Below, in pieces: positions 3,748 to 29,447 of a stretch of DNA of 34,479 bases. This DNA comes from Ruminococcus flavefaciens (GTDB lineage: Bacteria; Bacillota; Clostridia; Oscillospirales; Ruminococcaceae), in assembly GCA_902766595.1 (NCBI GenBank), contig CACXEJ010000007.1:1-34479 (forward strand), read 5' to 3'. How positions within the stretch are numbered: the stretch's first letter is position 1; each line of letters begins with the position of its first letter. The position numbers and the translations under genes are program-made. The notes beneath the pieces are model-generated. The model was not told where the DNA came from, made no database searches, and saw only the letters and a list, made by a program, of their open reading frames with translations.

Positions 3748-5241
3748 ATGTTCTACAACAGCACAAGAAACAGCAGTGTCAAGGTAAGCAGCGCTGAGGC
3801 TATAACTCAGGGCATCTCCGCAGAGGGCGGACTTTTCGTACCGGAGACAATACCGGAGCTGTCACTTGAGGAGATAAAGGCAGTCGGCGAGATGAAGTAC
3901 GCTGACAGAGCTGCATATGTGTTCTCAAAGTACCTCACTGATTTCACAGAGGCTGAGATACACTACTGTACTGACAATGCCTACTCAACAAAGAATTTCG
4001 AGACAGAGAGCATCTCTGAGCTTGCACACCTCTTTGACGGCACTTATATGCTCGAGCTCTGGCACGGACCTACTTGTGCTTTCAAGGATATGGCTCTCCA
4101 GATACTTCCTTACTTCCTTACAACATCTGCTAAGAAGATAAACCTCGACAAGAAGATAGTGATACTCGTTGCGACCTCCGGCGATACCGGAAAGGCAGCT
4201 CTCGAGGGCTTCAAGGACGTTGAGGGAACATCTATTATGGTATTCTATCCTGAGGACGGCGTAAGTCCGATGCAGAAGCGTCAGATGAAGACTCAGGAGG
4301 GAAGCAATGTAGGCGTATGTGCTATCAAGGGCAACTTTGATGACTGCCAGAACGGCGTAAAGGCTATCTTCACAGACGACAGCGTTAAGAAGGCACTCGA
4401 TGACAACGGAATGATGTTCTCAAGTGCAAACTCTATCAACTGGGGACGTCTTGTGCCGCAGGTAGTCTACTATGTATCAGCATACGCTGAGCTCGTCAAG
4501 GACGGCGAGATCGAGCTCGGAGACAAGATCAACATCGTAGTTCCGACCGGCAACTTCGGAAACATTCTTGCTGCTTACTACGCAAAGCATATGGGCGTTC
4601 CGGTGAACAAGCTCATCTGCGCTTCAAATATCAACAATGTCCTCACAGACTTCATCAACACCGGCGTTTACGACAGGAACAGAAAATTCTTCGCAACAGT
4701 ATCTCCCTCAATGGACATACTCATTTCCAGCAACCTTGAGAGACTCCTCTACCTTATGACAGGCAGGGACGATGCTCAGATCAGGGAGTGGTTCGGCAAG
4801 CTCGCTTCTAAGGGAAGATATGAGGTAAGTGCTGACGTAAAGGCAAAGCTCGCTGATGAATTCTGTGCAGGCTACTGCGATGACGCTCAGACCAAGGAGA
4901 CTATCCACTCTATCTACGAGAAGTATGGCTACACCTGCGACACTCATACAGCAGTTGCAGTGAAGGTATACAATGACTACAAGGCAGCAACGGGCGATAC
5001 AACAAAGACAGTCATTGCTTCGACAGCAAGCCCCTACAAGTTCAGCGCAGCAGTTCTCGAGGCGCTTGAGGGCAAGGCTTCTGACATTGACGAGTACGAC
5101 AAGGTCGATAAGATCGCAGAGCTCTCCAAGCTCGAGATCCCGGCAGCACTTGCAGATCTCAGAAACAAGCCGGAGCGTTTCAGCGATGTAATAGACAAGG
5201 CAGATCAGAAGGAGTACGTTCTCAGGAAACTGGGCGTATGA
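3748..5241 (+). CDS. thrC: Threonine synthase
   Basis: Threonine synthase converts O-phosphohomoserine to threonine with pyridoxal phosphate. The 497-residue product is the long form of the enzyme. The N-terminus (MFYNSTRNSS, then AITQGISAEGGLFVPE) is typical. The PLP lysine is Lys113 in HGPTCAFKDMALQ, and the phosphate-binding region includes VATSGDTGKAA and PTGNFGN. The gene begins 11 bases after the YraN-family gene with a GAAGGGTGA ribosome site. It ends in an ATGA overlap with the metallophosphoesterase. Its presence downstream of the rplS-rnhB group is not a widely conserved arrangement. Confidence 0.96.
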   Translation: MFYNSTRNSSVKVSSAEAITQGISAEGGLFVPETIPELSLEEIKAVGEMKYADRAAYVFSKYLTDFTEAEIHYCTDNAYSTKNFETESISELAHLFDGTYMLELWHGPTCAFKDMALQILPYFLTTSAKKINLDKKIVILVATSGDTGKAALEGFKDVEGTSIMVFYPEDGVSPMQKRQMKTQEGSNVGVCAIKGNFDDCQNGVKAIFTDDSVKKALDDNGMMFSSANSINWGRLVPQVVYYVSAYAELVKDGEIELGDKINIVVPTGNFGNILAAYYAKHMGVPVNKLICASNINNVLTDFINTGVYDRNRKFFATVSPSMDILISSNLERLLYLMTGRDDAQIREWFGKLASKGRYEVSADVKAKLADEFCAGYCDDAQTKETIHSIYEKYGYTCDTHTAVAVKVYNDYKAATGDTTKTVIASTASPYKFSAAVLEALEGKASDIDEYDKVDKIAELSKLEIPAALADLRNKPERFSDVIDKADQKEYVLRKLGV

Positions 5242-5939
5242 GCCTTTACACGATAGGAGATCTTCACCTGTGCTTCAGTGATCCGTCAAAGACGATGAGC
5301 ATCTTTAACGGCTGGCAGGACTACCAGGAGAGGATAGAGGAAAACTGGCGGAAAATGGTCAAGCCCGATGACACGGTCGTGCTGGCAGGGGACATTTCTT
5401 GGGGAATGTCGCTCCAGCAGGCGCTTCCGGACTTCCGCTTCATAGACGGACTGCCCGGCAGGAAGATAGTTCTCAAGGGCAATCACGATTACTGGTGGAC
5501 GACTATGCGCAAAATGGAGGATTTCCTCGCAAATGAGGGCTTCACGACCATAAGCATACTCCACAACAATCACTATGTCTATGAGAATTACGGCATATGC
5601 GGTACACGCGGCTGGGTAAACGGCACTGACAACAGCAAGGACGTTCAGGACGAAAAGGTCCTGCGCAGGGAAGTGCAGCGCCTTGAGACGTCGATACAGT
5701 CTGCGCTGAAAGCGGAGCTCGAACCGCTCGTGTTTATGCATTATCCGCCGATATTTGCCAATAATTACAACTACGACATACTCGAGGTGCTTTATCGCTA
5801 TAAGATAAAAAAGTGCTACTACGGACATATCCACGGACGTTCGGCGCACGAATTATGTGTTAAGGGAGTGTATGATGACATAGATTTTCACCTTGTAGCT
5901 GGTGATTATCTGCAATTCATTCCCGAAACTGTGCTGTAA
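5238..5939 (+). CDS. Calcineurin-like metallophosphoesterase
   Basis: A 233-residue cytosolic phosphoesterase with the full two-metal motif set: GDLHL (Asp8, His10), GDISWG (Asp52), GNHDYWW (Asn82, His83), then HYPP and GHIHG towards the C-terminus. It resembles the COG1768-type predicted phosphohydrolases, whose substrate is unknown. There is no signal peptide. The ATG overlaps the thrC stop (ATGA), so it is translationally coupled to thrC. No terminator is obvious before the tig promoter. Confidence 0.9.
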   Translation: MSLYTIGDLHLCFSDPSKTMSIFNGWQDYQERIEENWRKMVKPDDTVVLAGDISWGMSLQQALPDFRFIDGLPGRKIVLKGNHDYWWTTMRKMEDFLANEGFTTISILHNNHYVYENYGICGTRGWVNGTDNSKDVQDEKVLRREVQRLETSIQSALKAELEPLVFMHYPPIFANNYNYDILEVLYRYKIKKCYYGHIHGRSAHELCVKGVYDDIDFHLVAGDYLQFIPETVL

Positions 5940-5971
5940 TTTGTTCAATATGTAGAAGTATAAGAATTTAC

Positions 5972-6000
5972 TGGAAAAAATGCTGCAAATGTGGTATAAT
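5972..6000 (+). promoter_or_regulatory. SigA promoter of tig, extended -10
   Basis: TGGAAA (5972-5977), a 17-base spacer, then TATAAT (5995-6000) preceded by a TGG extension. The -35 box is weak but the extended -10 compensates. The same TGGAAA-17-TATAAT form with a TG extension occurs before the decarboxylase operon. Confidence 0.7.
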
Positions 6001-6043
6001 ATTCCAAGTATGTTATATATAATTAATGGAAGGACTTTTCACT

Positions 6044-7354
6044 ATGAGTTTAAAATCATCAAACAAGACAGATGTAAATACTACTGAGTTAGTTATTTCG
6101 ATCGACGCAGCTGCTTTTGAGGCTGCTGTTGAGAAGGAATATCAGCGCCAGAAGAAAAATATCCAGATAAAGGGCTTCAGAAAGGGTAAGGTTTCCCGTA
6201 AGCTCGCAGAGAGAGAGTTCGGTGAGGGCGCATTCTACGAGGGCGCTATCAACTCACTCCTCGGACCTGAGATTGACGCAGCTGTTAAGGAGACAAACCT
6301 TGTTCTCGTTGACAGACCTAACGTAGAAGTAACTTCTATCGACAAGGAAAACGGCGTAGAGCTCAAGGCTGTATGCATCACAAAGCCTGAGATCGAGATC
6401 TCTGACTACAAGGGCATCAAGGCTGCTAAGGTAGTAAGAGAGATCACTGACGAGGATATCGACAAGCAGATCGATATCATCAGAAAGAAGAACGCTCGTA
6501 TCGTTTCCGTTGAGGACAGAGCTGCTCAGATGGACGATGAAGTTACTATCGACTTCGAGGGCTTCTTCGGTGACGAGGCATTTGAAGGCGGTAAGGGCGA
6601 GGATCACCCCCTCCGTCTCGGCAGCGGACAGTTCATTCCCGGTTTTGAGGATCAGATCGTTGGTCACAACATCGGCGATGAGTTCGACGTAGTAGTTACT
6701 TTCCCTGAGGACTACCAGATGGCAGACTACGCAGGCAAGGAAGCTACATTCAAGACAAAGCTCAAGGCTATCAGCTATGAGGAGCTCCCCGAGATCAACG
6801 ATGACCTCATCAAGGACGCTACTGAGTTCGATACAGTTGACGAATACAGAAACGACATCAGAGCTAAGCTCGAGGAAGCAGCAACAACTCAGGCTGATTC
6901 TTCATTCGAGAACGATGTTATGACAGCTATCATCGAGAAGATCGACGCTCCTATCCCGAATTGTATGTATGAGCAGAGAATTGACTCACTTATGCGTTCA
7001 TTCGAGCAGCAGCTCAGATCACAGGGTATGGACCTCAAGCTCTACTTCCAGTACACTGGAATGGATATGGACTCCTTCAGAGAGACATACAGAGACAGAG
7101 CTGAGAAGGAAGTAAAGCTCCGCCTTGCACTCGAGAAGATCGCTGAGCTTGAGAACATCGAGGTAAGCGATGAAGAGATCAACTCCAGCCTTGCAGACCT
7201 CGCAGCAGCAAACAAGGTAGACGTTGAGACAATGAAGAGATTTATCCCTCTTGACGACTATGTAACAGACCTCAAGGTACAGAAGGCTGTTGAGATCGTT
7301 AAGGAGAGCGCAGTTGTTGACAACTCACTTGCTGAGAAGACAGACGCTGAATAA
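6044..7354 (+). CDS. tig: Trigger factor, ribosome-bound chaperone and prolyl isomerase
   Basis: Trigger factor binds ribosomal protein L23 at the exit tunnel and shields nascent chains. The product is 436 residues from the ATG at 6044. The ribosome-docking signature GFRKGKVSRKLAE is near residues 45-57 in the N-terminal domain. The FKBP-type domain follows (FEGFFGDEAFEGG, GSGQFIPGFEDQIVGH), then the helical C-terminal chaperone domain. I prefer the 6044 start because GGAAGGA (6028-6034) is spaced 9 bases before it; an ATG at 6026 overlaps that site and would add six residues. The gene heads the conserved tig-clpP-clpX cluster. Confidence 0.96.
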   Translation: MSLKSSNKTDVNTTELVISIDAAAFEAAVEKEYQRQKKNIQIKGFRKGKVSRKLAEREFGEGAFYEGAINSLLGPEIDAAVKETNLVLVDRPNVEVTSIDKENGVELKAVCITKPEIEISDYKGIKAAKVVREITDEDIDKQIDIIRKKNARIVSVEDRAAQMDDEVTIDFEGFFGDEAFEGGKGEDHPLRLGSGQFIPGFEDQIVGHNIGDEFDVVVTFPEDYQMADYAGKEATFKTKLKAISYEELPEINDDLIKDATEFDTVDEYRNDIRAKLEEAATTQADSSFENDVMTAIIEKIDAPIPNCMYEQRIDSLMRSFEQQLRSQGMDLKLYFQYTGMDMDSFRETYRDRAEKEVKLRLALEKIAELENIEVSDEEINSSLADLAAANKVDVETMKRFIPLDDYVTDLKVQKAVEIVKESAVVDNSLAEKTDAE

Positions 7355-7414
7355 TAAAATAACGGATCAGCCGGCAGTATTCGACATATACCGGCACAGA
7401 TCAAGATAATACAT

Positions 7415-7444
7415 ATTGTCCCACAGCCTAAATTGTGGGACAAT
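7415..7444 (+). promoter_or_regulatory. Perfect 11-bp inverted repeat in the clpP leader
   Basis: ATTGTCCCACA (7415-7425) and its exact complement (7434-7444) flank an 8-base spacer, 26 bases upstream of the clpP ATG. It does not match CIRCE (the HrcA site) or the CtsR direct-repeat operator. It is followed by GGTTTTT, so it may instead be a tig terminator. A weak TTCGAC (7380-7385) and GATAAT (7405-7410) pair with a 19-base spacer lies just upstream, which would place the repeat at the transcript start. Confidence 0.55.
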
Positions 7445-7470
7445 GGTTTTTAAGAAAGGGCGATGAAATT

Positions 7471-8061
7471 ATGAGCAGTTTAGTACCATATGTCGTTGAA
7501 CAGACAAGCCGCGGCGAGCGTTCCTACGATATTTTCTCAAGACTTCTCAATGACAGGATCATTATGCTTTCAGATCAGGTGAACGATGTTACAGCGAGCC
7601 TTGTTGTAGCACAGCTACTCTATCTCGAGAGTCAGGACGCTGAGAAGGATATCTCACTCTACATCAACAGTCCCGGAGGCTCTGTAACAGCCGGTATGGC
7701 GATATATGACACAATGAACTATGTAAAGTGTGACGTATCGACTATCTGTATCGGTATGGCAGCTTCAATGGGTGCTTTCCTGCTTTCATCAGGCGCAAAG
7801 GGCAAGCGTTTCGCGCTCCCGAACAGCGAGATAATGATACACCAGCCCCTTATCGGCGGCGGACTCGGCGGTCAGCAGACCGATATTATGATACACGCTA
7901 AGAACCTCGAGCGTACAAGAGAACGTCTCGAAGCTATCCTCGCTGAAAATACCGGAAAGACACTCGAGCAGATCCATACAGACTGCGAGCGTGATAACTA
8001 TATGATCGCACAGGAAGCAATGGAGTATGGTCTTATAGACAAAGTTATAGCAAAAAGGTAG
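7471..8061 (+). CDS. clpP: ATP-dependent Clp protease proteolytic subunit
   Basis: ClpP forms the tetradecameric serine protease chamber used by ClpX and ClpC. The ATG at 7471 gives 196 residues, the normal length, with an AAAGGG ribosome site 10 bases upstream. The in-frame GTG at 7435 would start within the inverted repeat and add a non-conserved extension. The catalytic triad is visible as Ser99 ([11 protein letters not shown]), His124 (MIHQPLIGG) and Asp175 (ERDNYM). The N-terminal [17 protein letters not shown] block of mature ClpP is intact. It is followed after 9 bases by clpX. Confidence 0.97.
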
Positions 8062-8070
8062 GTTATATAA

Positions 8071-9363
8071 ATGGCTGAATCATTTAAGTCCTGCAGTTTC
8101 TGCGGAAAGGGCGAAAACAGGGTACACAGCATGTTTTCTGCCGGTACTGCGAATATCTGTGATGAATGTGTATGCTACTGCTATGAAATGATCTATGGTC
8201 CCGGGATCGCAAAGGCTCAGAAGAAGGCTGCAAAGAAGGACGGCGACAAGTCGCTCTCCTCTATGAAGCTCCTGAAGCCGCGCGAGATAAAGGAATTCCT
8301 CGATGACTACGTTATCGGTCAGGACGACGCCAAGATCTCGCTTGCAGTTGCGGTCTATAACCACTACAAGCGCATTATGAGTCAGGAGGCTGCCGAGAAG
8401 AACCTCAATGACGATGACGGAGTAGATCTCCAGAAGAGCAACGTTCTGCTCCTCGGACCTACCGGTGTCGGAAAGACTTTCCTCGCACAGACTCTTGCAA
8501 AGCTCCTCAATGTGCCGTTTGCTATCGCTGACGCAACAACGATAACCGAAGCCGGTTATGTCGGCGACGATGTTGAGAACGTCCTGCTTCGTCTCATACA
8601 GGCAGCAGATTTTGACATCAAGGCAGCCGAACGCGGTATCATATACATCGACGAGATAGACAAGATCGCAAGAAAGTCCGAAAATACGTCGCTTACCCGT
8701 GATGTAAGCGGTGAGGGCGTACAGCAGGCACTCCTCAAGATAATCGAGGGAACTGTTTCAAACGTTCCTCCTCAGGGCGGCAGAAAGCACCCCAATCAGG
8801 AAGTGATCCAGATAAACACGAAAAATATCCTGTTTATCTGCGGCGGTGCCTTTGACGGACTCGAGCGCCAGATACAGAAGCGTATCGGCAAGGCTCCGAT
8901 AGGCTTCGGCGGCGATATAAAGGCTCATCACGAGATCAAGGACAACATCTTCAAGAAGGTCATTCCGAAGGATCTCGTAAAATTCGGTATGGTACCGGAA
9001 TTTGTCGGCAGACTTCCGGTAATAACAGTGCTTGACGAGCTTGATGAAGACTCGCTCGTAAAGATACTTACCGAGCCTAAGAATGCGCTCATCAAGCAGT
9101 ACAAGAAGCTCTTTGACTACGACGACATCGAGCTTGAAATAGAGGACGGCGCCCTCGTTGAGATAGCAAAGAAGGCTATTGCACAGAAAACCGGTGCGCG
9201 CGGACTCCGCTCCATACTCGAGGGCATACTGATGAACACAATGTTCACCGTTCCCTCGGACGGCAGCATCGCAAAGGTAACAGTTACCGCTGACTGCGTT
9301 CTCAACGGTACACAGCCTATCCTTATGAACAGAAGGAACAAGGTCGTTACCATAGCGGTATAA
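8071..9363 (+). CDS. clpX: ClpX, ATP-dependent unfoldase of ClpXP
   Basis: ClpX is the AAA+ hexamer that unfolds substrates and feeds them to ClpP. The 430 residues begin with the zinc-binding domain (Cys8, Cys11, Cys30, Cys33). The Walker A motif GPTGVGKT follows (129-136, Lys135), then Walker [12 protein letters not shown] (Asp194, Glu195). The ClpP-docking IGF tripeptide is at about 277-279 (APIGFGGD). The sensor and arginine region near [11 protein letters not shown] completes the AAA+ module. The gene starts 9 bases after clpP and ends at a strong terminator. Confidence 0.97.
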
Positions 9364-21592: not shown

Positions 21593-21625
21593 AGGCACGT
21601 CTCGGAGAGGGACGTGCCTGTTTTT
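21593..21625 (+). terminator. Intrinsic terminator after the ABC exporter
   Basis: A 9-bp stem AGGCACGTC (21593-21601) with GACGTGCCT (21611-21619), a 9-base loop, then TGTTTTT. It slightly overlaps the stop codon of the convergent yunB-like gene. Confidence 0.88.
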
Positions 21626-22277
21626 ATAGTGGACCGAAGGCGTACCTGCTGATCTCCGGAACGCTGCCGACGATGACGTTTTCAGCGAGCAGAAACTCGA
21701 ACCTGACCTCGGTATCGAACGAGTAGAGCGGCACAGATGAATGGAGCTCCGCTGTTACGACAGCTGATATGCGGTGACAGGTCTGATTGATACCGGCACC
21801 GGTGAGTTCACTTTTCAGCTCGACCTTTGCGGAACCGGAAGGGCATATCCTTAACTTTATCTTCGGACCTTTTCCCACGAGCATATATGAGCCTGTCAGT
21901 GAACCGAGAGCGATGCGTTCTGTCCGTGCATTGGAGGTGCTCAGTGCCCTGTTGATTTTTATAGTCAGCTCGGACTGTACCTTGTTGATGCTGTACGGAA
22001 CTGACTCCACAGCCACGGCTCTGCCGTTTTCGTCGTAGAGAACAGCAGCGAAGTCACTGTAAGTGAATTTGTTTTCGTCGAGGTAATCTGCTACCGCCGT
22101 GCCGATGAGCTCATTTGCTGAAGCCGAGGCGAAGTGCTCAGCCTGCATAGCAGCGACCGGGCGGAGAGCCTTGTCTGTGCGTCTCAGAGCTATACCGAGC
22201 AGGACGAGTATGACTGCAAATACAGCAGCGCCGAAGAGCGTTCTGCCGGAGTATCTGCGATGCCTGCGCCTTTTCAT
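21624..22277 (-). CDS. yunB: YunB-family sporulation protein
   Basis: A 217-residue membrane-anchored protein matching YunB, a mother-cell (SigE) sporulation protein of Bacillus and Clostridia with unknown biochemistry. It starts with a basic MKRRRHRRYSG stub and one membrane helix (about 13-31). The conserved core includes LGSLTGSYMLVGKGPKIKL, then GAGINQTCHRI and the VTAELHSSVPL strand. The start has no strong ribosome site, but the upstream gene ends only 6 bases away, so coupling is likely. Its presence suggests that the organism keeps at least part of a sporulation programme. Confidence 0.85.
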   Translation of the reverse strand: MKRRRHRRYSGRTLFGAAVFAVILVLLGIALRRTDKALRPVAAMQAEHFASASANELIGTAVADYLDENKFTYSDFAAVLYDENGRAVAVESVPYSINKVQSELTIKINRALSTSNARTERIALGSLTGSYMLVGKGPKIKLRICPSGSAKVELKSELTGAGINQTCHRISAVVTAELHSSVPLYSFDTEVRFEFLLAENVIVGSVPEISRYAFGPL

Positions 22278-22283
22278 AGGCTA

Positions 22284-23015
22284 TCAGCTCAGGCTGTCGT
22301 TATTGCAGCAGCAGGAGTCGGAGCTGTCGGTCAGAGCGGTAGGTGAGAACTCATCTTCAGGGAACTTGAGCTTTTCAAAGACCTCGCAGGGCGAGTCTGA
22401 GTCGATATTGCATTCCTTTCTGGGGATAGTGTAATCGAGAGTCGGAACTAATACCGTAACAGGTCTTGTGAGCTCAACTACCGAGAACAGACCGAGAGTC
22501 ACGAAAACGCTTCTTTCGGACTGTTCCTGATCGCCGCAGTCCTGTGAGCAGCCTATGCGCGCGTTGAGTGCGATAGGTTCGAGAACTGAGACAATGGCAG
22601 TCGGGAGATTATTGTCGGTATCCTCCACAGTAACATCGGGATCGTCGGTGCTCCTGAATGTGCGGACAGATGACTCGCTGCCGTAGAGGATACAGTTCTT
22701 GCTTGCGTAAGCCGTACCGCTGAACACGGTCGGTGTGCATCTTGAGGTCTCATAGCCGAGTATCTCAAGAGTGAAGGTGTAAGTGATGTCTATCGAGTAG
22801 AAGCCTCTGTTGAACGGGATAGGCTCGACGTTGACGCAGACGTTTTCTACCGTAGCTGCGCGGCTGCGGACGATATTGATATTATCCGGGAGAGTGCCTT
22901 CGTCGAGAGTAACCAGAAGATCGCTGAAACAATCCTTATCGCTGCAGCTGTCGTAGACGCGGTCTGTCTTTACAGGAACTGCGTCGGACTGCTGTCTGTA
23001 AATATTATCATTCAT
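22284..23015 (-). CDS. Conserved clostridial Cys-rich protein upstream of yunB
   Basis: A 243-residue protein without signal peptide or membrane helix. It opens with NDNIYRQQSDAVPVKTDRVY followed by DSCSDKDCFSDL, has a VNVEPIPFNRGFYSIDITYTF block near residues 60-80, and ends in a DSCCCNND tail. I recall similar proteins as conserved hypothetical, possibly spore-associated, in Clostridia but cannot name a family. A good ribosome site (GGAGG) precedes the ATG. It is immediately followed by the YunB-like gene in the same direction, which suggests sporulation-time expression. A TATAAT (23068-23063 on the minus strand) lies upstream without a good SigA -35 box. Confidence 0.75.
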   Translation of the reverse strand: MNDNIYRQQSDAVPVKTDRVYDSCSDKDCFSDLLVTLDEGTLPDNINIVRSRAATVENVCVNVEPIPFNRGFYSIDITYTFTLEILGYETSRCTPTVFSGTAYASKNCILYGSESSVRTFRSTDDPDVTVEDTDNNLPTAIVSVLEPIALNARIGCSQDCGDQEQSERSVFVTLGLFSVVELTRPVTVLVPTLDYTIPRKECNIDSDSPCEVFEKLKFPEDEFSPTALTDSSDSCCCNNDSLS

Positions 23016-23101: not shown

Positions 23102-23130
23102 TGGACAAAATATGTAATTTGTGATAAAAT
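23102..23130 (+). promoter_or_regulatory. SigA promoter of the GTPase-NYN fusion gene
   Basis: TGGACA (23102-23107), a 17-base spacer, TAAAAT (23125-23130), 45 bases before the ATG. I see no leader peptide or attenuator of the kind found before tet(M). Confidence 0.7.
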
Positions 23131-23175
23131 TAAAGTTGCTATGAATTGAACGTTTCAGACAGGAGAGCGGATTAT

Positions 23176-25740
23176 ATGAAAACGATAACTGTCGGGATAA
23201 CGGCGCACGTTGATTCCGGAAAGACAACTCTCGCGGAGGCGATGCTATACAAGACCGGTCAGATAAGGAAGCTCGGCAGGGTAGACAGCGGAAGCTCCGC
23301 ACTTGATACGGATAATATCGAGCGCGGCAGAGGAATAACCATATTCGCTCATCAGGCGGAGCTCACTGCCGGCGATACGCGGATAATGCTGCTCGATACG
23401 CCCGGACACGTTGATTTTTCGGCTGAAACTGAGCGCACGATGCGTGTACTTGACTACGCCGTGCTTGTCATAAGCGGAACTGACGGCGTTCAGAGCCATA
23501 CGGCAACATTGTGGAAGCTGCTCCGGCAGTATGAAGTGCCGGTATTCATATTCGTGAATAAAATGGATCTTATCGGTGCGGACAGGAGTGCTGTGCTGAA
23601 GGATCTTCGGAGCAGGCTCTCGGACAGCTGCTGCGATTTTTCAGGAACTGACGGCGAGATATGCGAAAACTGCGCTACTGCCTGCGAGGATATGATGAAT
23701 ACCTACCTTGCGGACGGTACACTTTCCGATGCCGATATAGCGAAAGCTATAAGTCAGCGGAGGGTATTCCCATGCTGCTTTGGTTCTGCGCTGAAAACTG
23801 ACGGCGTTGAGGAATTTCTGCACATTCTTGACAGGTTTACCGCTGAGCCCGAGCGGAAGCCGGAGTTCGGCGCTGTGGTGTACAAGATCTCCTACGATCC
23901 GAAGGGAACACGCCTTGCGCATATGAAGATAACCGGCGGAATTCTCCGTATGCGGGACGAGCTCTCATATACCGGTCAGGACGGCGAGTCTGAGACCTGC
24001 AAAGTCAGCTCGATACGCTTTTACTCCGGGGAAAAGTTCCGGACAGCCGATACAGCTTCAGCCGGGGAGGTCTGTGCTGTGACGGGACTTACCGGCACTT
24101 ATGCCGGACAGGGACTCGGCTGTGAGAACGACTCCGGCAGAGCGTTCCTCGAAGCAGTTATGACCTATCGTATCGTCCTGCCGCCGGATAAGAACGTCTA
24201 TGAGGCGCTTGGTGATATGCGCAGGCTTGAGGACGAGGATCCTCAGCTGCATATCGTCTGGAACGAGCAGCTCCGCGAGATACATATCCAGCTTATGGGA
24301 ACGGTACAGCTTGAAGTCCTGACGCAGCGCATTGAGGAGAAGTTCGGGTATAAGGTCAGCTTTGAGAACGGAGCTGTGACCTACCGCGAAACGATACGCG
24401 AAAAGGTCGAGGGCGTCGGACACTATGAACCCCTCCGGCATTATGCAGAGGTACATCTGCTGCTTGAACCTCTTGAGCGCGGCAGCGGACTTGTCTTTGA
24501 GACAGCGTGCTCCGAGGATGAGCTCGACCGCAACTGGCAGCGTCTTATCCTCACCCACCTTGCAGAAAAAACTCACATCGGAGCGCTTACCGGCTCACCA
24601 ATAACCGATATGAAGATAACGCTTGCTTCCGGTAAGGCTCACCTCAAGCATACAGAGGGCGGCGACTTCCGGCAGGCTACTTACAGAGCAGTCCGTCAGG
24701 GACTGCGGAGCGCGGAGAGCGTTCTGCTCGAGCCGTACTATGATTTTGAGCTTGAAGTGCCTGCACAGTCAGTCGGAAGAGCTCTTGCTGATCTCCAGCA
24801 TATGTCTGCCGAGACCGAGCCGCCGCAGAGCATAGGCGAAATGTCGGTTGTGACCGGAAGTGCTCCGGTATCTGCGCTGAACGGCTATCAGGCAGAGGTC
24901 ATCAGCTATACAAGGGGACAGGGAAGACTGTCCTGCACGTTTGGCGGTTACAGGGAGTGTGCAGACGCAGAAAAGGTGGCAGCGGAGATAGCTTACGACT
25001 GCGACTCTGACATTGAAAACTCAGCCGACTCCATATTCTGCTCGCACGGAGCCGGATATGTAGTCAAGTGGAACGAAGTTACGGAGCATATGCACCTGCC
25101 GTCCTGTCTTGAAAAGCAGGCAGAACCGGAGGAAATCTCACCTGAGAGGGTGAGGCGTTTTGTGGAACGTGCCGCCTCTGACGAGGAGCTTATGGCGATA
25201 TTCGAGCGAACCTACGGAAAGCTGAACAAGGATCCGCGCAGGGCGTTCAAAAAGACTAAGGCGGTCGCAGTAGATCACGGACCGGTAAGCCTGCCCGACT
25301 ATGAGGGACCTGAATATCTTCTTGTAGACGGCTACAATATAATATTCGCGTGGGAGGAGCTCAAGAAGATCGCGGAAGAAAACCTTGACGCAGCCCGTGC
25401 CGAGCTTGTGAAGATGATGTGCAGCTATCAGGGCTGTACCGGCTATGAGCTGATACTGGTCTTTGACGCATACAAGGTCAAAGGCAGGGACAGGGACGTC
25501 GAGCGGTACTATAATATCAGCATAGTTTACACAAAGGAGAAGGAGACTGCCGATACCTATATCGAGCGAGTGAGCCACGAGCTTTCAAAGAAGCACAGAG
25601 TTCGTGTGGCAACCTCTGACGGTGCCGAGCAGCTGATAATACTCGGAAACGGTGCGATGCGCATTTCGGCGGAGGAGCTGCGGCAGAGGTACAAGGCTGC
25701 GGAAAAGGCTCTCAGCGAATACATCAGCAATGTCAACTGA
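23176..25740 (+). CDS. TetM/EF-G-like ribosomal GTPase fused to YacP/Rae1-type NYN nuclease
   Basis: An 854-residue two-part protein. Residues 1 to about 640 form a translational GTPase of the ribosomal-protection (TetM/EF-G) type: G1 AHVDSGKTT (10-18), G2 in RGRGITI, G3 DTPGH (74-78), G4 NKMD (128-131), then domains II-V, including LLEPYYDFELEVP. Residues about 700-854 match YacP/Rae1, the NYN/PIN endonuclease that cuts mRNA in the ribosomal A site. The block LLVDGYNIIFAW has Asp718 and Asn721, LVFDAYKVKG has Asp764, ETADTYIE has Asp793, and VATSDGAEQ has Asp815. All acidic residues expected for catalysis are kept. The ATG follows AGGAG by 10 bases. The fusion suggests a GTPase that docks a nuclease in the A site (inference). 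Tetracycline protection is not implied. Confidence 0.9.
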   Translation: MKTITVGITAHVDSGKTTLAEAMLYKTGQIRKLGRVDSGSSALDTDNIERGRGITIFAHQAELTAGDTRIMLLDTPGHVDFSAETERTMRVLDYAVLVISGTDGVQSHTATLWKLLRQYEVPVFIFVNKMDLIGADRSAVLKDLRSRLSDSCCDFSGTDGEICENCATACEDMMNTYLADGTLSDADIAKAISQRRVFPCCFGSALKTDGVEEFLHILDRFTAEPERKPEFGAVVYKISYDPKGTRLAHMKITGGILRMRDELSYTGQDGESETCKVSSIRFYSGEKFRTADTASAGEVCAVTGLTGTYAGQGLGCENDSGRAFLEAVMTYRIVLPPDKNVYEALGDMRRLEDEDPQLHIVWNEQLREIHIQLMGTVQLEVLTQRIEEKFGYKVSFENGAVTYRETIREKVEGVGHYEPLRHYAEVHLLLEPLERGSGLVFETACSEDELDRNWQRLILTHLAEKTHIGALTGSPITDMKITLASGKAHLKHTEGGDFRQATYRAVRQGLRSAESVLLEPYYDFELEVPAQSVGRALADLQHMSAETEPPQSIGEMSVVTGSAPVSALNGYQAEVISYTRGQGRLSCTFGGYRECADAEKVAAEIAYDCDSDIENSADSIFCSHGAGYVVKWNEVTEHMHLPSCLEKQAEPEEISPERVRRFVERAASDEELMAIFERTYGKLNKDPRRAFKKTKAVAVDHGPVSLPDYEGPEYLLVDGYNIIFAWEELKKIAEENLDAARAELVKMMCSYQGCTGYELILVFDAYKVKGRDRDVERYYNISIVYTKEKETADTYIERVSHELSKKHRVRVATSDGAEQLIILGNGAMRISAEELRQRYKAAEKALSEYISNVN

Positions 25741-26001: not shown

Positions 26002-27399
26002 ATGAAAAAAGTGCAACTGACAGAAACCGTTCTGCGTGATGCTAACCAGTCTCTGATGGCAACACGTCTGCCCTATAAGGATTATGAGGGTATCCTTGCC
26101 GATATGGACAAGGCAGGCTACTATTCTATCGAGTGCTGGGGCGGAGCAACGTTTGACTCATGTCTCCGTTATCTCGGTGAGGATCCGTGGGAGAGACTCC
26201 GCAACCTCAGAAAGAACCTTCCCAACACACGTCTCCAGATGCTTCTGAGAGGTCAGAACCTTCTCGGCTATAAGCATTACCACGACGATGTTGTAGAGAA
26301 GTTCATCGAGCTCTCTATCAAGAACGGTATAGATGTTATCCGTATCTTTGACGCGCTCAACGACTTCAGAAATATCGAGACAGCTCTCAACGCTACAAAG
26401 AAGTATGCAACAAAGAGAACTATCGCTTCAGGCTGTATCTCATACACACAGAGCCCTGTGCATACAGTTGACAAGTACATAGAGATGTGCAAGGAGCTCA
26501 AGAGAATGGGCTTTGACACTATCTGCCTCAAGGATATGGCAGGAACGATGTCCCCCTACGAGGCTGAGCACCTCATCAAGGGCATCAAGGACGCTATCGG
26601 CGATATGACTCTCATTCTCCATACACACTGCACAACAGGTATGGCATATATGACTCTCACAAAGGCGATCGAGTCAGGCATCGACGTTATCGACACAGCT
26701 ACCTCCTGCTTCTCAGGCGGTACTTCACAGCCCGCTACCGAGACAATGTACTACGCATTCAAGCAGTACGGCATCGACTGCGGACTCAATGAGGACATCA
26801 TCAACAAGGTCAACGGCTTCTTCAAGCCCGTAAAGCAGAAGTACATCGACAACGGTCAGCTCAACCCCAAGAGCCTTGCAACAGACGCTCAGGCTCTCGT
26901 ATACAAGGTACCGGGCGGTATGCTTTCAAATATGATCGCAAACCTCACAGATATGCACGCGATGGACAAGTTTGACGCTGCACTCGCTGAGATCCCGAAG
27001 GTAAGAGCAGATCTCGGCTATCCTCCGCTTGTAACTCCTCTTTCACAGATGGTAGGAAATCAGGCTGTAACAAACGTTCTTGTCGGCGAGCGCTACAAGA
27101 ACATCTCCAAGGAAGTAAAGAACTACATCAAGGGCGAATATGGTATCGCACCTGCACCGATCAACGCAGAGCTCAGCAAGAAGGTACTCGGCGACGCACA
27201 GCCTGTTGACTGCCGCGACGAGGATAAGAAGCGTACAGGTGAAGAGTTCAAGGCAGCCAAGGAAGCCCTCGGCGACCTCTGCCGCTGCGAGGAAGATGTA
27301 ATGAGCTACATCTGCTACCCTGACCAGACTATCAACTTCCTCAAGAACCGCAAGGCTCAGGAAGAGAACGAAGCCGTTTACACCATCGAAGAGATGTAA
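26002..27399 (+). CDS. oadA: Oxaloacetate decarboxylase alpha subunit, carboxyltransferase only
   Basis: Carboxyltransferase that moves the carboxyl group of oxaloacetate to biotin. The 465 residues hold the TIM-barrel metal site: Asp13 (LRDANQS), the carbamylated-lysine candidate Lys177 (LKDMAG), His207 and His209 (LHTHCTTG). The conserved block YKVPGGMLSNM is also present. Unlike the approximately 590-residue classical OadA there is no C-terminal biotin domain; biotin is carried by the separate 132-residue protein two genes downstream. A pyruvate carboxylase B-type role is possible from this domain alone, but the downstream Na+ pump subunit supports a membrane decarboxylase. Confidence 0.92.
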   Translation: MKKVQLTETVLRDANQSLMATRLPYKDYEGILADMDKAGYYSIECWGGATFDSCLRYLGEDPWERLRNLRKNLPNTRLQMLLRGQNLLGYKHYHDDVVEKFIELSIKNGIDVIRIFDALNDFRNIETALNATKKYATKRTIASGCISYTQSPVHTVDKYIEMCKELKRMGFDTICLKDMAGTMSPYEAEHLIKGIKDAIGDMTLILHTHCTTGMAYMTLTKAIESGIDVIDTATSCFSGGTSQPATETMYYAFKQYGIDCGLNEDIINKVNGFFKPVKQKYIDNGQLNPKSLATDAQALVYKVPGGMLSNMIANLTDMHAMDKFDAALAEIPKVRADLGYPPLVTPLSQMVGNQAVTNVLVGERYKNISKEVKNYIKGEYGIAPAPINAELSKKVLGDAQPVDCRDEDKKRTGEEFKAAKEALGDLCRCEEDVMSYICYPDQTINFLKNRKAQEENEAVYTIEEM

Positions 27400-27411
27400 G
27401 GAGGCAGAAGT

Positions 27412-27816
27412 ATGGTTGATATTACAACGCTGGCTGCGACCGAGGCAGTTACTGAGGCTGCAACCGAGAAAGGCGACAAGCTGAGTATCGGAGAGGCTGC
27501 TGTTACTGCGATATTCGGCTATTCAGTCGTATTTGCAGGACTTCTTGTGCTTATGATAGTGCTCTACTGCACAGGCGCATATTTCAAGTCCAAGGAAGCA
27601 AAGCAGAAGGCAGACTCCGCAGCAGAAAAGACTGCTGCACCCGCAGCTGCTCCCGCACCGGCAGCAGCTCAGAAGCTCGCTCCCGGCTCCGCAGGTCATG
27701 TAAAGCTGTTCGATGTACCCGATAAGGAAGCAGCTATGATAATGGCAATAGTAGCGGACAAAATGCAGAAGCCCCTTAACGAGCTTCACTTTATTTCCAT
27801 CAAGGAGGTCAAATAA
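27412..27816 (+). CDS. oadG: Small membrane subunit of the decarboxylase (OadG-like)
   Basis: A 134-residue protein with one membrane helix (about 31-57) preceded by a short external N-terminus and followed by an Ala/Pro/Lys linker (64-95). The C-terminal DKEAAMIMAIVADKM helix segment is typical of gamma/delta subunits of Na+-translocating decarboxylases, which hold the carboxyltransferase and the beta subunit together. The call rests on size, layout and position between the alpha and biotin-carrier genes; sequence identity in this family is low. It starts 12 bases after oadA with GGAGG. Confidence 0.78.
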   Translation: MVDITTLAATEAVTEAATEKGDKLSIGEAAVTAIFGYSVVFAGLLVLMIVLYCTGAYFKSKEAKQKADSAAEKTAAPAAAPAPAAAQKLAPGSAGHVKLFDVPDKEAAMIMAIVADKMQKPLNELHFISIKEVK

Positions 27817-27818
27817 CA

Positions 27819-28217
27819 ATGAAGTATAAAGTTACTCTTAACGGTAAGACATATGAAGTTGAGGTAGAGCAGGGAAAGGCAGTCCTTCTTGACGAGTACG
27901 AAGCTCTTGCACCTGCACCGGCAGCTCCTGCTGCTGCACCCGCAGCCGCAGCTCCGGCAGCAGCTCCTGCACCGGCAGCCGCTGCACCTGTAAACCTTGC
28001 AGCAGGCGAGACTGTTGAAGCTCCTATGCCCGGAAACATCATCCGTGTTGACGTAAAGCAGGGAGATACAGTAAAGGCTGGACAGATCCTCGTAATTCTC
28101 GAAGCAATGAAAATGGAAAATGAGATCGTATCACCCAAGGACGGCACAGTTGCTCAGGTAGTAACGAGCAAGGGCTCAGTAGTAGATACAGGCGCACCTC
28201 TTGTAGTTATTGCGTAA
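27819..28217 (+). CDS. Biotin carboxyl carrier subunit of the decarboxylase
   Basis: A 132-residue carrier. An N-terminal strand region (1-28) leads to an Ala/Pro linker (29-60) and a lipoyl/biotinyl domain. The biotinylation motif is EAMKMEN with Lys98, and MPGNIIRVDVKQGDTV is the usual first half of the domain. It is equivalent to GcdC/MmdC-type separate carriers and shuttles the carboxyl group from the carboxyltransferase to the membrane beta subunit. It begins 2 bases after the previous stop codon. The antisense Ala/Gly-rich frame over the linker is a shadow. Confidence 0.93.
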   Translation: MKYKVTLNGKTYEVEVEQGKAVLLDEYEALAPAPAAPAAAPAAAAPAAAPAPAAAAPVNLAAGETVEAPMPGNIIRVDVKQGDTVKAGQILVILEAMKMENEIVSPKDGTVAQVVTSKGSVVDTGAPLVVIA

Positions 28218-28229
28218 GGAGGCTGTCGT

Positions 28230-29447
28230 ATGGATGTTATTGAGACCTTAAAGACCTTATGGAACGATTCGGGATTTCAGAGCTTTTTCGTGGACGGCGG
28301 CTGGAAAAACCTCATAATGATCGCTGTATCCTGTCTGCTCCTCTATCTCGGTATCGTCAAGAAATTTGAACCGCTTCTTCTCGTAGGAATAGCGTTCGGA
28401 TGTCTCCTCGTAAACCTTTCATATTTTGGTCCCGGTTCGAGCGATGCGCTCTATCACCTCGACCTCTGGGACAACTTCCTTGATCCCGAGCACGAGAATT
28501 ATCACAGCTACGGCGCAATAATGAGTCACGGCGGACTTCTCGATATACTTTACATCGGCGTAAAGGCTGGTATCTACCCGTCACTTATCTTTATGGGTGT
28601 TGGTGCGATGACCGATTTCGGACCGCTTATCTCAAACCCCAAGAGCCTTATCCTCGGTGCGGCAGCTCAGATGGGCGTATTCCTCGCTTTCTTCGGAGCT
28701 ATCTGTCTCGGATTTACCGGACAGGAAGCTGCATCTATCGGAATTATCGGCGGTGCTGACGGACCTACCGCTATCTTCCTTACAACAAGACTCGCTCCTC
28801 ATCTTCTCGGAGCTATCGCTATCGCAGCTTACTCATATATGGCACTTATCCCGATGATACAGCCGCCTATTATGAGAGCACTCACAACTGAGAAGGAGCG
28901 TCAGGTAAAGATGGAGCAGTCCAGAACTGTTTCCAAGACAGAGAAGATCATCTTCCCGATAATCGTAGCAATGTTCGTTATCCTGCTTCTCCCCTCAACA
29001 GCACCGCTCGTAGGCTGCCTTATGCTCGGCAACCTCTGGAGAGAGTGCGGCGTGACAGAGAGACTTTCCGACACAGTACAGAATGCTCTTATGAATATCG
29101 TAACAGTATTCCTCGGAATTTCAGTCGGAGCAACAACAGCTGCTTCACGTTTCCTTTCACTTGAGACTATCAAGATAGTAGCTCTCGGACTTGCAGCTTT
29201 CTGCTTCTCTACAGTCGGCGGACTTCTCGTCGGCAAGCTGATGTATAAGCTGTCGGGCGGAAAGATCAATCCGCTCATTGGTTCAGCCGGTGTATCGGCA
29301 GTACCTATGGCAGCTCGTGTATCGCAGATGGAAGGTCAGAAGGCAAACCCGAAGAACTTCCTGCTTATGCACGCTATGGGACCGAACGTAGCCGGAGTTA
29401 TCGGCTCTGCTATCGCAGCTGGTTTCCTGCTTGCAGTATTCAAGTAA
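28230..29447 (+). CDS. oadB: Na+-translocating decarboxylase beta subunit
   Basis: A 405-residue polytopic membrane protein that decarboxylates carboxybiotin and pumps Na+ out. The family signature GIIGGADGPTAIFLTTRL (about 170-187) contains the conserved Asp proposed for Na+ transfer. A second conserved block, SAGVSAVPMAARVSQ, is near the C-terminus, and LIPMIQPPIMR follows the first. Sequence alone does not distinguish an oxaloacetate, glutaconyl-CoA or methylmalonyl-CoA pump, but the OadA-type carboxyltransferase upstream indicates oxaloacetate. It would couple central-carbon decarboxylation to a sodium gradient. It ends the operon. Confidence 0.94.
   Translation: MDVIETLKTLWNDSGFQSFFVDGGWKNLIMIAVSCLLLYLGIVKKFEPLLLVGIAFGCLLVNLSYFGPGSSDALYHLDLWDNFLDPEHENYHSYGAIMSHGGLLDILYIGVKAGIYPSLIFMGVGAMTDFGPLISNPKSLILGAAAQMGVFLAFFGAICLGFTGQEAASIGIIGGADGPTAIFLTTRLAPHLLGAIAIAAYSYMALIPMIQPPIMRALTTEKERQVKMEQSRTVSKTEKIIFPIIVAMFVILLLPSTAPLVGCLMLGNLWRECGVTERLSDTVQNALMNIVTVFLGISVGATTAASRFLSLETIKIVALGLAAFCFSTVGGLLVGKLMYKLSGGKINPLIGSAGVSAVPMAARVSQMEGQKANPKNFLLMHAMGPNVAGVIGSAIAAGFLLAVFK

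Follow-up and report, generated by a model that had tools for sequence, protein, structure and literature searches.

A Rae1-type NYN domain fused to a translational GTPase in Ruminococcus flavefaciens and related bacteria

The window analysed here, a stretch of 34,479 nucleotides from Ruminococcus flavefaciens (contig CACXEJ010000007.1 of assembly GCA_902766595.1), encodes a single polypeptide in which a translational GTPase is followed by an NYN domain of the YacP/Rae1 type. Rae1 attacks mRNA in the ribosomal A site, according to the relevant passages of PMC12320835, and TetM is described in its part of PMC7456112 as binding the A site with the tip of its domain IV. Reported targets of Rae1 include yrzI/S1025 and bmrCD (PMC10632193). 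The locus raises the question of what the two parts do together. The architecture is already in print, since Atkinson 2015 (PMC4342817) described, in the section concerned, 'Tet' proteins that carry an NYN domain like that of YacP in ten clostridial species; these have the same two-part architecture, and the protein of the window fits the description. The treatment of the fusion in that section consists of two sentences and a pointer, with a guess at resistance or RNase function and no experiments. A search of titles and abstracts in the open-licence literature returned neither a further paper linking the GTPase with an NYN domain nor an experimental study of a GTPase-driven nuclease fusion. 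What is new here is the probable replacement of Rae1, the single clade of the fused NYN domains and the separation of the GTPase from TetM.

The fusion gene (23176..25740, + strand, 854 aa) was delimited from its open reading frame, from Pfam matches and from the same fusion read in relatives. The frame, whose stop ends at 25740 on the + strand, could start at TTG 23146 or at ATG 23176. The 854 aa form is preferred because a ribosome-binding site read directly from the sequence, AGGAGAG (23161..23167, +), precedes ATG 23176 by 8 nt. The initial annotation also gave the gene its own promoter. A site of the consensus type, TGGACA-17-TAAAAT with a TG before the -10 element, is present at 23102..23130 (+) as a consensus match only, and a single such match is weak evidence since the scanned stretch held 8 promoter-like matches against 2.9 expected in shuffled sequences. 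A leader starting from this site would be approximately 40 nt long and would leave no room for an attenuator of the tet(M) type, which needs a longer one.

The fusion itself is confirmed. The same colinear arrangement was read in 39 fetched relatives. Within a sample of 295 genomes of the order, NYN_YacP was found in 101, and in 99 of these it lies beside the GTPase; in the two exceptions (G107 and G215) the stretch stops at contig ends. An artefact of sequencing or assembly joining two genes was rejected on the basis of this adjacency. The GTPase family was found in 113 genomes of the same sample (E up to 1e-40), including 14 in which it occurs without the NYN domain, none of them with any NYN match. 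The presence of unfused GTPases in genomes that lack NYN implies that the GTPase has a job of its own. Tabulation in a second sample, of 398 genomes of the phylum, gave 30 with the GTPase, 23 of them fused as judged by open-frame length. A stand-alone yacP was also looked for in the window's own genome (82% complete), where the single NYN match is the fusion. Among the named relatives, drawn from the 80 best of 591 confirmed stretches that are not necessarily all fused, are Ruminococcus flavefaciens FD-1 (73%), Intestinimonas butyriciproducens, Anaerovorax odorimutans and Lachnospiraceae. Full-length matches were also found in plasmid records of Monoglobus pectinilyticus and Agathobacter rectalis. 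Two 'phage' records with a full-length match are unverified faecal scaffolds that carry no annotation, and do not count as evidence of carriage by phages.

The GTPase part has domains I to V in the same order as TetM and TetO, over approximately 600 aligned residues. The G domain (residues 1-221, 23176..23838) matches Pfam GTP_EFTU at residues 2-221 (E 1.2e-50) and is followed by domain II (residues 231-308, 23866..24099; EF-G_D2), domain III (residues 348-397, 24217..24366; EFG_III), domain IV (residues 400-513, 24373..24714; EFG_IV, 3.4e-19) and domain V (residues 516-597, 24721..24966; EFG_C, 1.4e-17), all on the + strand. The P-loop AHVDSGKTT, DTPGH and NKMD are intact. Residues D13, K16, T17, T18, H78, K129 and D131 are invariant in all 66 family members compared and N128 is kept in 63 of the 66. 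The GTPase part matched TetO (E 2e-73), TetM and EF-G. The AlphaFold2 model (44 sequences; mean pLDDT 81.5, pTM 0.60) has an EF-G-like body, and the 50 Foldseek matches listed for the whole model are all EF-G, EF-2 or EF-G-like proteins.

Domain V is followed by a family-specific C-terminal extension (residues 598-643, 24967..25104, +) defined by alignment and model and carrying a SIFCSHGAG..W motif. A motif like SVFCxHGAG is common to most fused and unfused members, and the extension stands where TetM has a C-terminal segment of its own. In the AlphaFold2 model it reaches about residue 638. The junction was placed near residue 643 because the unfused proteins end just after the extension. The linker beyond it (residues 644-712, 25105..25311, +) is mostly of low model confidence, which extends across much of residues 647-706 around a helix at residues 656-680 that holds DEELMAIFERTYG. 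As a PDB query, extension and linker together gave a best E of 0.35. In comparisons with four Ruminococcus relatives, whose synonymous sites are saturated or nearly so, dN was 0.37-0.52 for the linker, 0.16-0.24 for the GTPase and 0.13-0.17 for the NYN domain, the linker values being approximately 1.9 to 3.1 times those of either domain.

The NYN_YacP/Rae1-type domain occupies residues 713-854 (25312..25737, +). A profile search of the C-terminal region matched PF05991 at residues 715-850 well over the cut-off (E 2.3e-48, 164.8 bits against 24.6), and the PDB search matched Bacillus subtilis YacP/Rae1 5MQ9 (E 2.8e-27, 136 residues aligned). By sequence this is the same domain as in Rae1/YacP of B. 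subtilis (PDB 5MQ8, 5MQ9), with the same catalytic residues, and it is mostly well predicted in the AlphaFold2 model. The complete domain with D718, N721, D764, D793 and D815 described in the initial annotation is thus present, and all five residues are invariant in 44/44 fused proteins and 26/26 stand-alone YacPs. Decay of the NYN domain was rejected on account of these invariant active-site residues and its low dN.

The B. subtilis Rae1 is a stand-alone protein of 170 aa with a C-terminal WRR, whereas the fusion lacks WRR. This tripeptide was found near the C-terminus of 16/26 stand-alone but 0/44 fused proteins; it is not universal, as the other 10 stand-alone proteins are also without it. 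Its second R is R166 in B. subtilis Rae1, and according to the relevant part of PMC6613710 the substitution R166P was selected in a set of rae1 mutations regarded there as abolishing function, so that the loss of WRR fits a GTPase that has taken over targeting. Residues E790, R829 and E834 (numbering of the window's protein) are each conserved in 100% of the 26 stand-alone proteins, compared to 61%, 64% and 45%, respectively, in the fused ones. We read the missing WRR and the relaxation of E790, R829 and E834 as docking elements that may have become unnecessary once the GTPase carried the NYN domain. These changes could equally mean a changed target or a changed docking mode.

The distribution of the NYN domain argues for replacement of a separate gene. 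In the phylum sample a NYN_YacP match was found in 208 of the 398 genomes (205 over the curated cut-off, 3 below) and was absent from 190, which implies that the function is dispensable. Exactly one NYN match was present in each of the 23 genomes with a fusion, against at least one in 185 of the 375 others (3 below cut-off); the hypergeometric probability for this contrast, 3e-7, makes it look stronger than it is, since related genomes are not independent. Two NYN matches each were found in G516 and G619, both of which fall outside the 30 GTPase-bearing genomes of that sample. The 26 stand-alone proteins, taken as the 30 best-scoring loci of the phylum sample minus 4 that were fused, are not a random draw and include two that are identical; in all 26 loci the gene order is rlmB-yacP-sigH, whereas the fusion is located elsewhere. 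The rlmB loci were fetched from 20 genomes, of which 18 have the fusion and 2 lack NYN, and searched for yacP by tblastn (E 1e-8). Near rlmB, yacP was not matched in any of the 18 fused genomes. In G527, G636, G675, G448, G297, G417 and G435, which make up 7 of the 18, rlmB and sigH adjoin each other; no sigH match was found near rlmB in the other 11, so the emptied slot was seen in 7 only.

A tree of the NYN domains placed all 44 fused sequences in one clade, split from the 26 stand-alone YacPs (100/100). The single clade, the single NYN match per fused genome and the emptied rlmB-sigH slot together suggest that the fusion probably replaced the separate Rae1 gene of this lineage. The yacP gene would then have left its slot between rlmB and sigH and would probably survive as the C-terminal domain of the GTPase.

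Set A1 comprised 37 of 40 fusions, and set A3 the window together with 43 of the 80 named loci. The GTPase tree (70 rows) was computed without L237, which scored as L238 did, and without the split L250 (G275, 4200-6817, - strand), in which the NYN domain starts on the GTPase frame and the remainder lies in an overlapping frame, by frameshift or assembly error. The fused state requires 4 changes on this tree, at least 3 of them forced by starred branches. Two unfused loci, L233 and L241, and an unfused protein of Ligilactobacillus salivarius are nested among fused rows under a 98/95 branch, those of L241 and L. salivarius on long branches and poorly resolved in their placement. The pattern fits one gain of the NYN domain and three losses, one for each of these unfused proteins. 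Several independent fusions were rejected, given this fit and the single clade of the fused NYNs. Fused rows from outside the order (L094 and L279) stand among rows of the order, which suggests lateral transfer.

The L. salivarius protein, a 'translation factor GTPase' of plasmid pMP118 in strain UCC118, is 48% identical to the fusion over residues 1-640 and has a similar tip and extension, but lacks both the linker and the NYN domain. Secondary loss of NYN is probable here because the protein lies inside the fused clade, though its place there is poorly resolved. Its unfused gene (L281, 3986-5920) is located on the megaplasmid beside rpsN and is annotated as a TetM/TetW/TetO/TetS resistance protein.

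The reading that we favour, with a probability of about 0.55, is that the fusion is the Rae1 of this lineage, a putative ribosome-dependent mRNA endonuclease that has moved onto the C-terminus of a translational GTPase. Ribosome binding, cutting in the A site, the order of the steps and the biological purpose are parts of this reading that we infer. In its GTP form the GTPase would bind ribosomes whose A site is empty or blocked, and the tethered NYN domain would thereby be brought to the ribosome. GTP hydrolysis would be followed by exit of domain IV from the A site. Carried by its flexible linker, the NYN domain could then enter and cut the A-site mRNA, after which decay or rescue could follow. 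A role in rescue or quality control is plausible. The initial annotation proposed that the protein could use GTP to dock on ribosomes and cut their mRNA; domain IV and NYN would both need the A site and could not share it, and a sequential form of that proposal is therefore favoured. The linker of approximately 70 residues, most of which the model predicts with low confidence, likewise suggests sequential action.

A more specific version, which we hold only tentatively, is that of an A-site nuclease clocked by GTP and serving as the Rae1 of many gut Clostridia. Here a translational GTPase of its own class would sense an A site that stays unfilled, a dedicated tip of domain IV would clear or probe it, and the tethered Rae1 domain would cut the mRNA, so that rescue or decay of stalled messages would be made dependent on GTP hydrolysis. 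If true, mRNA quality control in many gut Clostridia would depend on a nuclease driven by a GTPase, and the recruitment of Rae1 to particular ribosomes would become testable in one protein.

Alternatively, the GTPase and the NYN domain may act separately, with the fusion fixing only their co-expression or stoichiometry. This speculation would agree with the persistence of unfused GTPases in genomes without NYN, with the apparent NYN losses within the fused clade and with the fast variation of the linker. We nevertheless consider it doubtful. Both genes were found unfused in one genome in 4 of the 7 phylum-sample genomes with an unfused GTPase (and in 0/14 in the order), and in those 4 they lie at a distance from each other or on separate contigs, which gives no sign of an operon precursor. 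Loss of WRR from every fused protein also speaks against independent action, as does the linker motif I[FY]ExTYG, which is kept in 21/23 aligned rows of the order, although in only 2/17 other rows.

A second alternative is the one raised in the section of PMC4342817 on these proteins, antibiotic protection, in which a Tet-type protein gained an RNase domain and RNA cutting serves drug resistance. The domain order is that of TetM and TetO, NCBI names some relatives as TetM/TetW/TetO/TetS family proteins, and the best NCBIfam model for the fusion protein is tet_protect. Its score of 413.8 bits misses the curated cut-off of 775 (NF012153), however, as does the EF-G model TIGR00484 with 300.5 against 659.4 bits; of the 25 models listed out of 37, no full-length one is over its cut-off, and the sole model to pass is that of the general small_GTP domain. 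The GTPase is 29-32% identical to the products of genes annotated Tet(W), Tet(M) and Tet(O), and in the GTPase tree the references annotated as TetM, TetO and TetW are set off by a starred 99/92 branch together with an arm 3.7 long. Since this tree has long branches and a midpoint root, only the separation from TetM/O/W is claimed from it.

The tip loop of domain IV (residues 487-499, KAHLKHTEGGDFR, 24634..24672, +) is family-specific in the alignment. L490-K491-H492 takes the place of the SPV tip of TetM loop III, with K491 standing at P509; a K at position 491 is found in 39/44 fused and 18/22 unfused proteins, and the strict string HxKHTEGGDFR in 29/40 aligned fusions. H489 aligns with H584 of EF-G (Met counted), which we take to be a histidine important in translocation. 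The loop is equal in length to that of TetM. The tip of TetM loop III, Pro509, reaches the tetracycline site, as stated in the relevant part of PMC7456112, and the passage on loop III in PMC4750697 reports the TetM triple mutant S508A P509A V510A as active. Given a loop of TetM length and an active triple mutant, the tip sequence by itself does not settle the matter against ribosome protection.

Compared to TetM and TetO, the fusion thus has a separate clade, another tip loop, another C-terminal extension in place of the TetM segment, and the NYN domain. By sequence, the GTPase is a family of translational GTPases separate from both EF-G and TetM, and the initial assignment to the TetM type did not hold in the strict sense. 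The NYN-bearing members, present in 101/295 genomes of the order, mostly look like a conserved rather than a sporadic gene, and among the neighbouring genes, which were clustered but not annotated, no cluster recurred at more than 14 of the 114 loci. Taken together, these observations make antibiotic protection unlikely. This would also bear on surveys of resistance genes: the annotation of some relatives places them in the TetM/TetW/TetO/TetS family, whereas the protein of the window misses the cut-off and lies outside the TetM clade.

Cutting of other ribosome-linked RNA, rRNA or tRNA, which Anantharaman and Aravind 2006 (cited in the relevant part of PMC4342817) first suggested for the YacP-like domain, appears improbable, as Rae1, the closest studied relative, is reported in its section of PMC12320835 to act on A-site mRNA.

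Returning to the fusion as the Rae1 of this lineage, a single-gene system is probable, because no conserved partner gene was found in the 114 loci within four open reading frames; the largest cluster was at mixed positions, and many loci reach contig ends. In the window, a gene for a 243 aa protein (22284-23015, - strand) is divergent from the fusion and matched neither Pfam nor NCBIfam at the thresholds applied; it adjoins a YunB-type sporulation gene (21624-22277). At locus L247, a more distant GTPase-like open reading frame (6187-8085, - strand, 632 aa) lies directly upstream of an unfused family member. The fusion gene of the window is followed by genes of the sodium-pump decarboxylase type (26002-29447; alpha, gamma, biotin carrier and beta), the first of which is likewise the next gene in the Ruminococcus relatives L134, L135 and L136, but at none of the remaining loci among the 114 compared.
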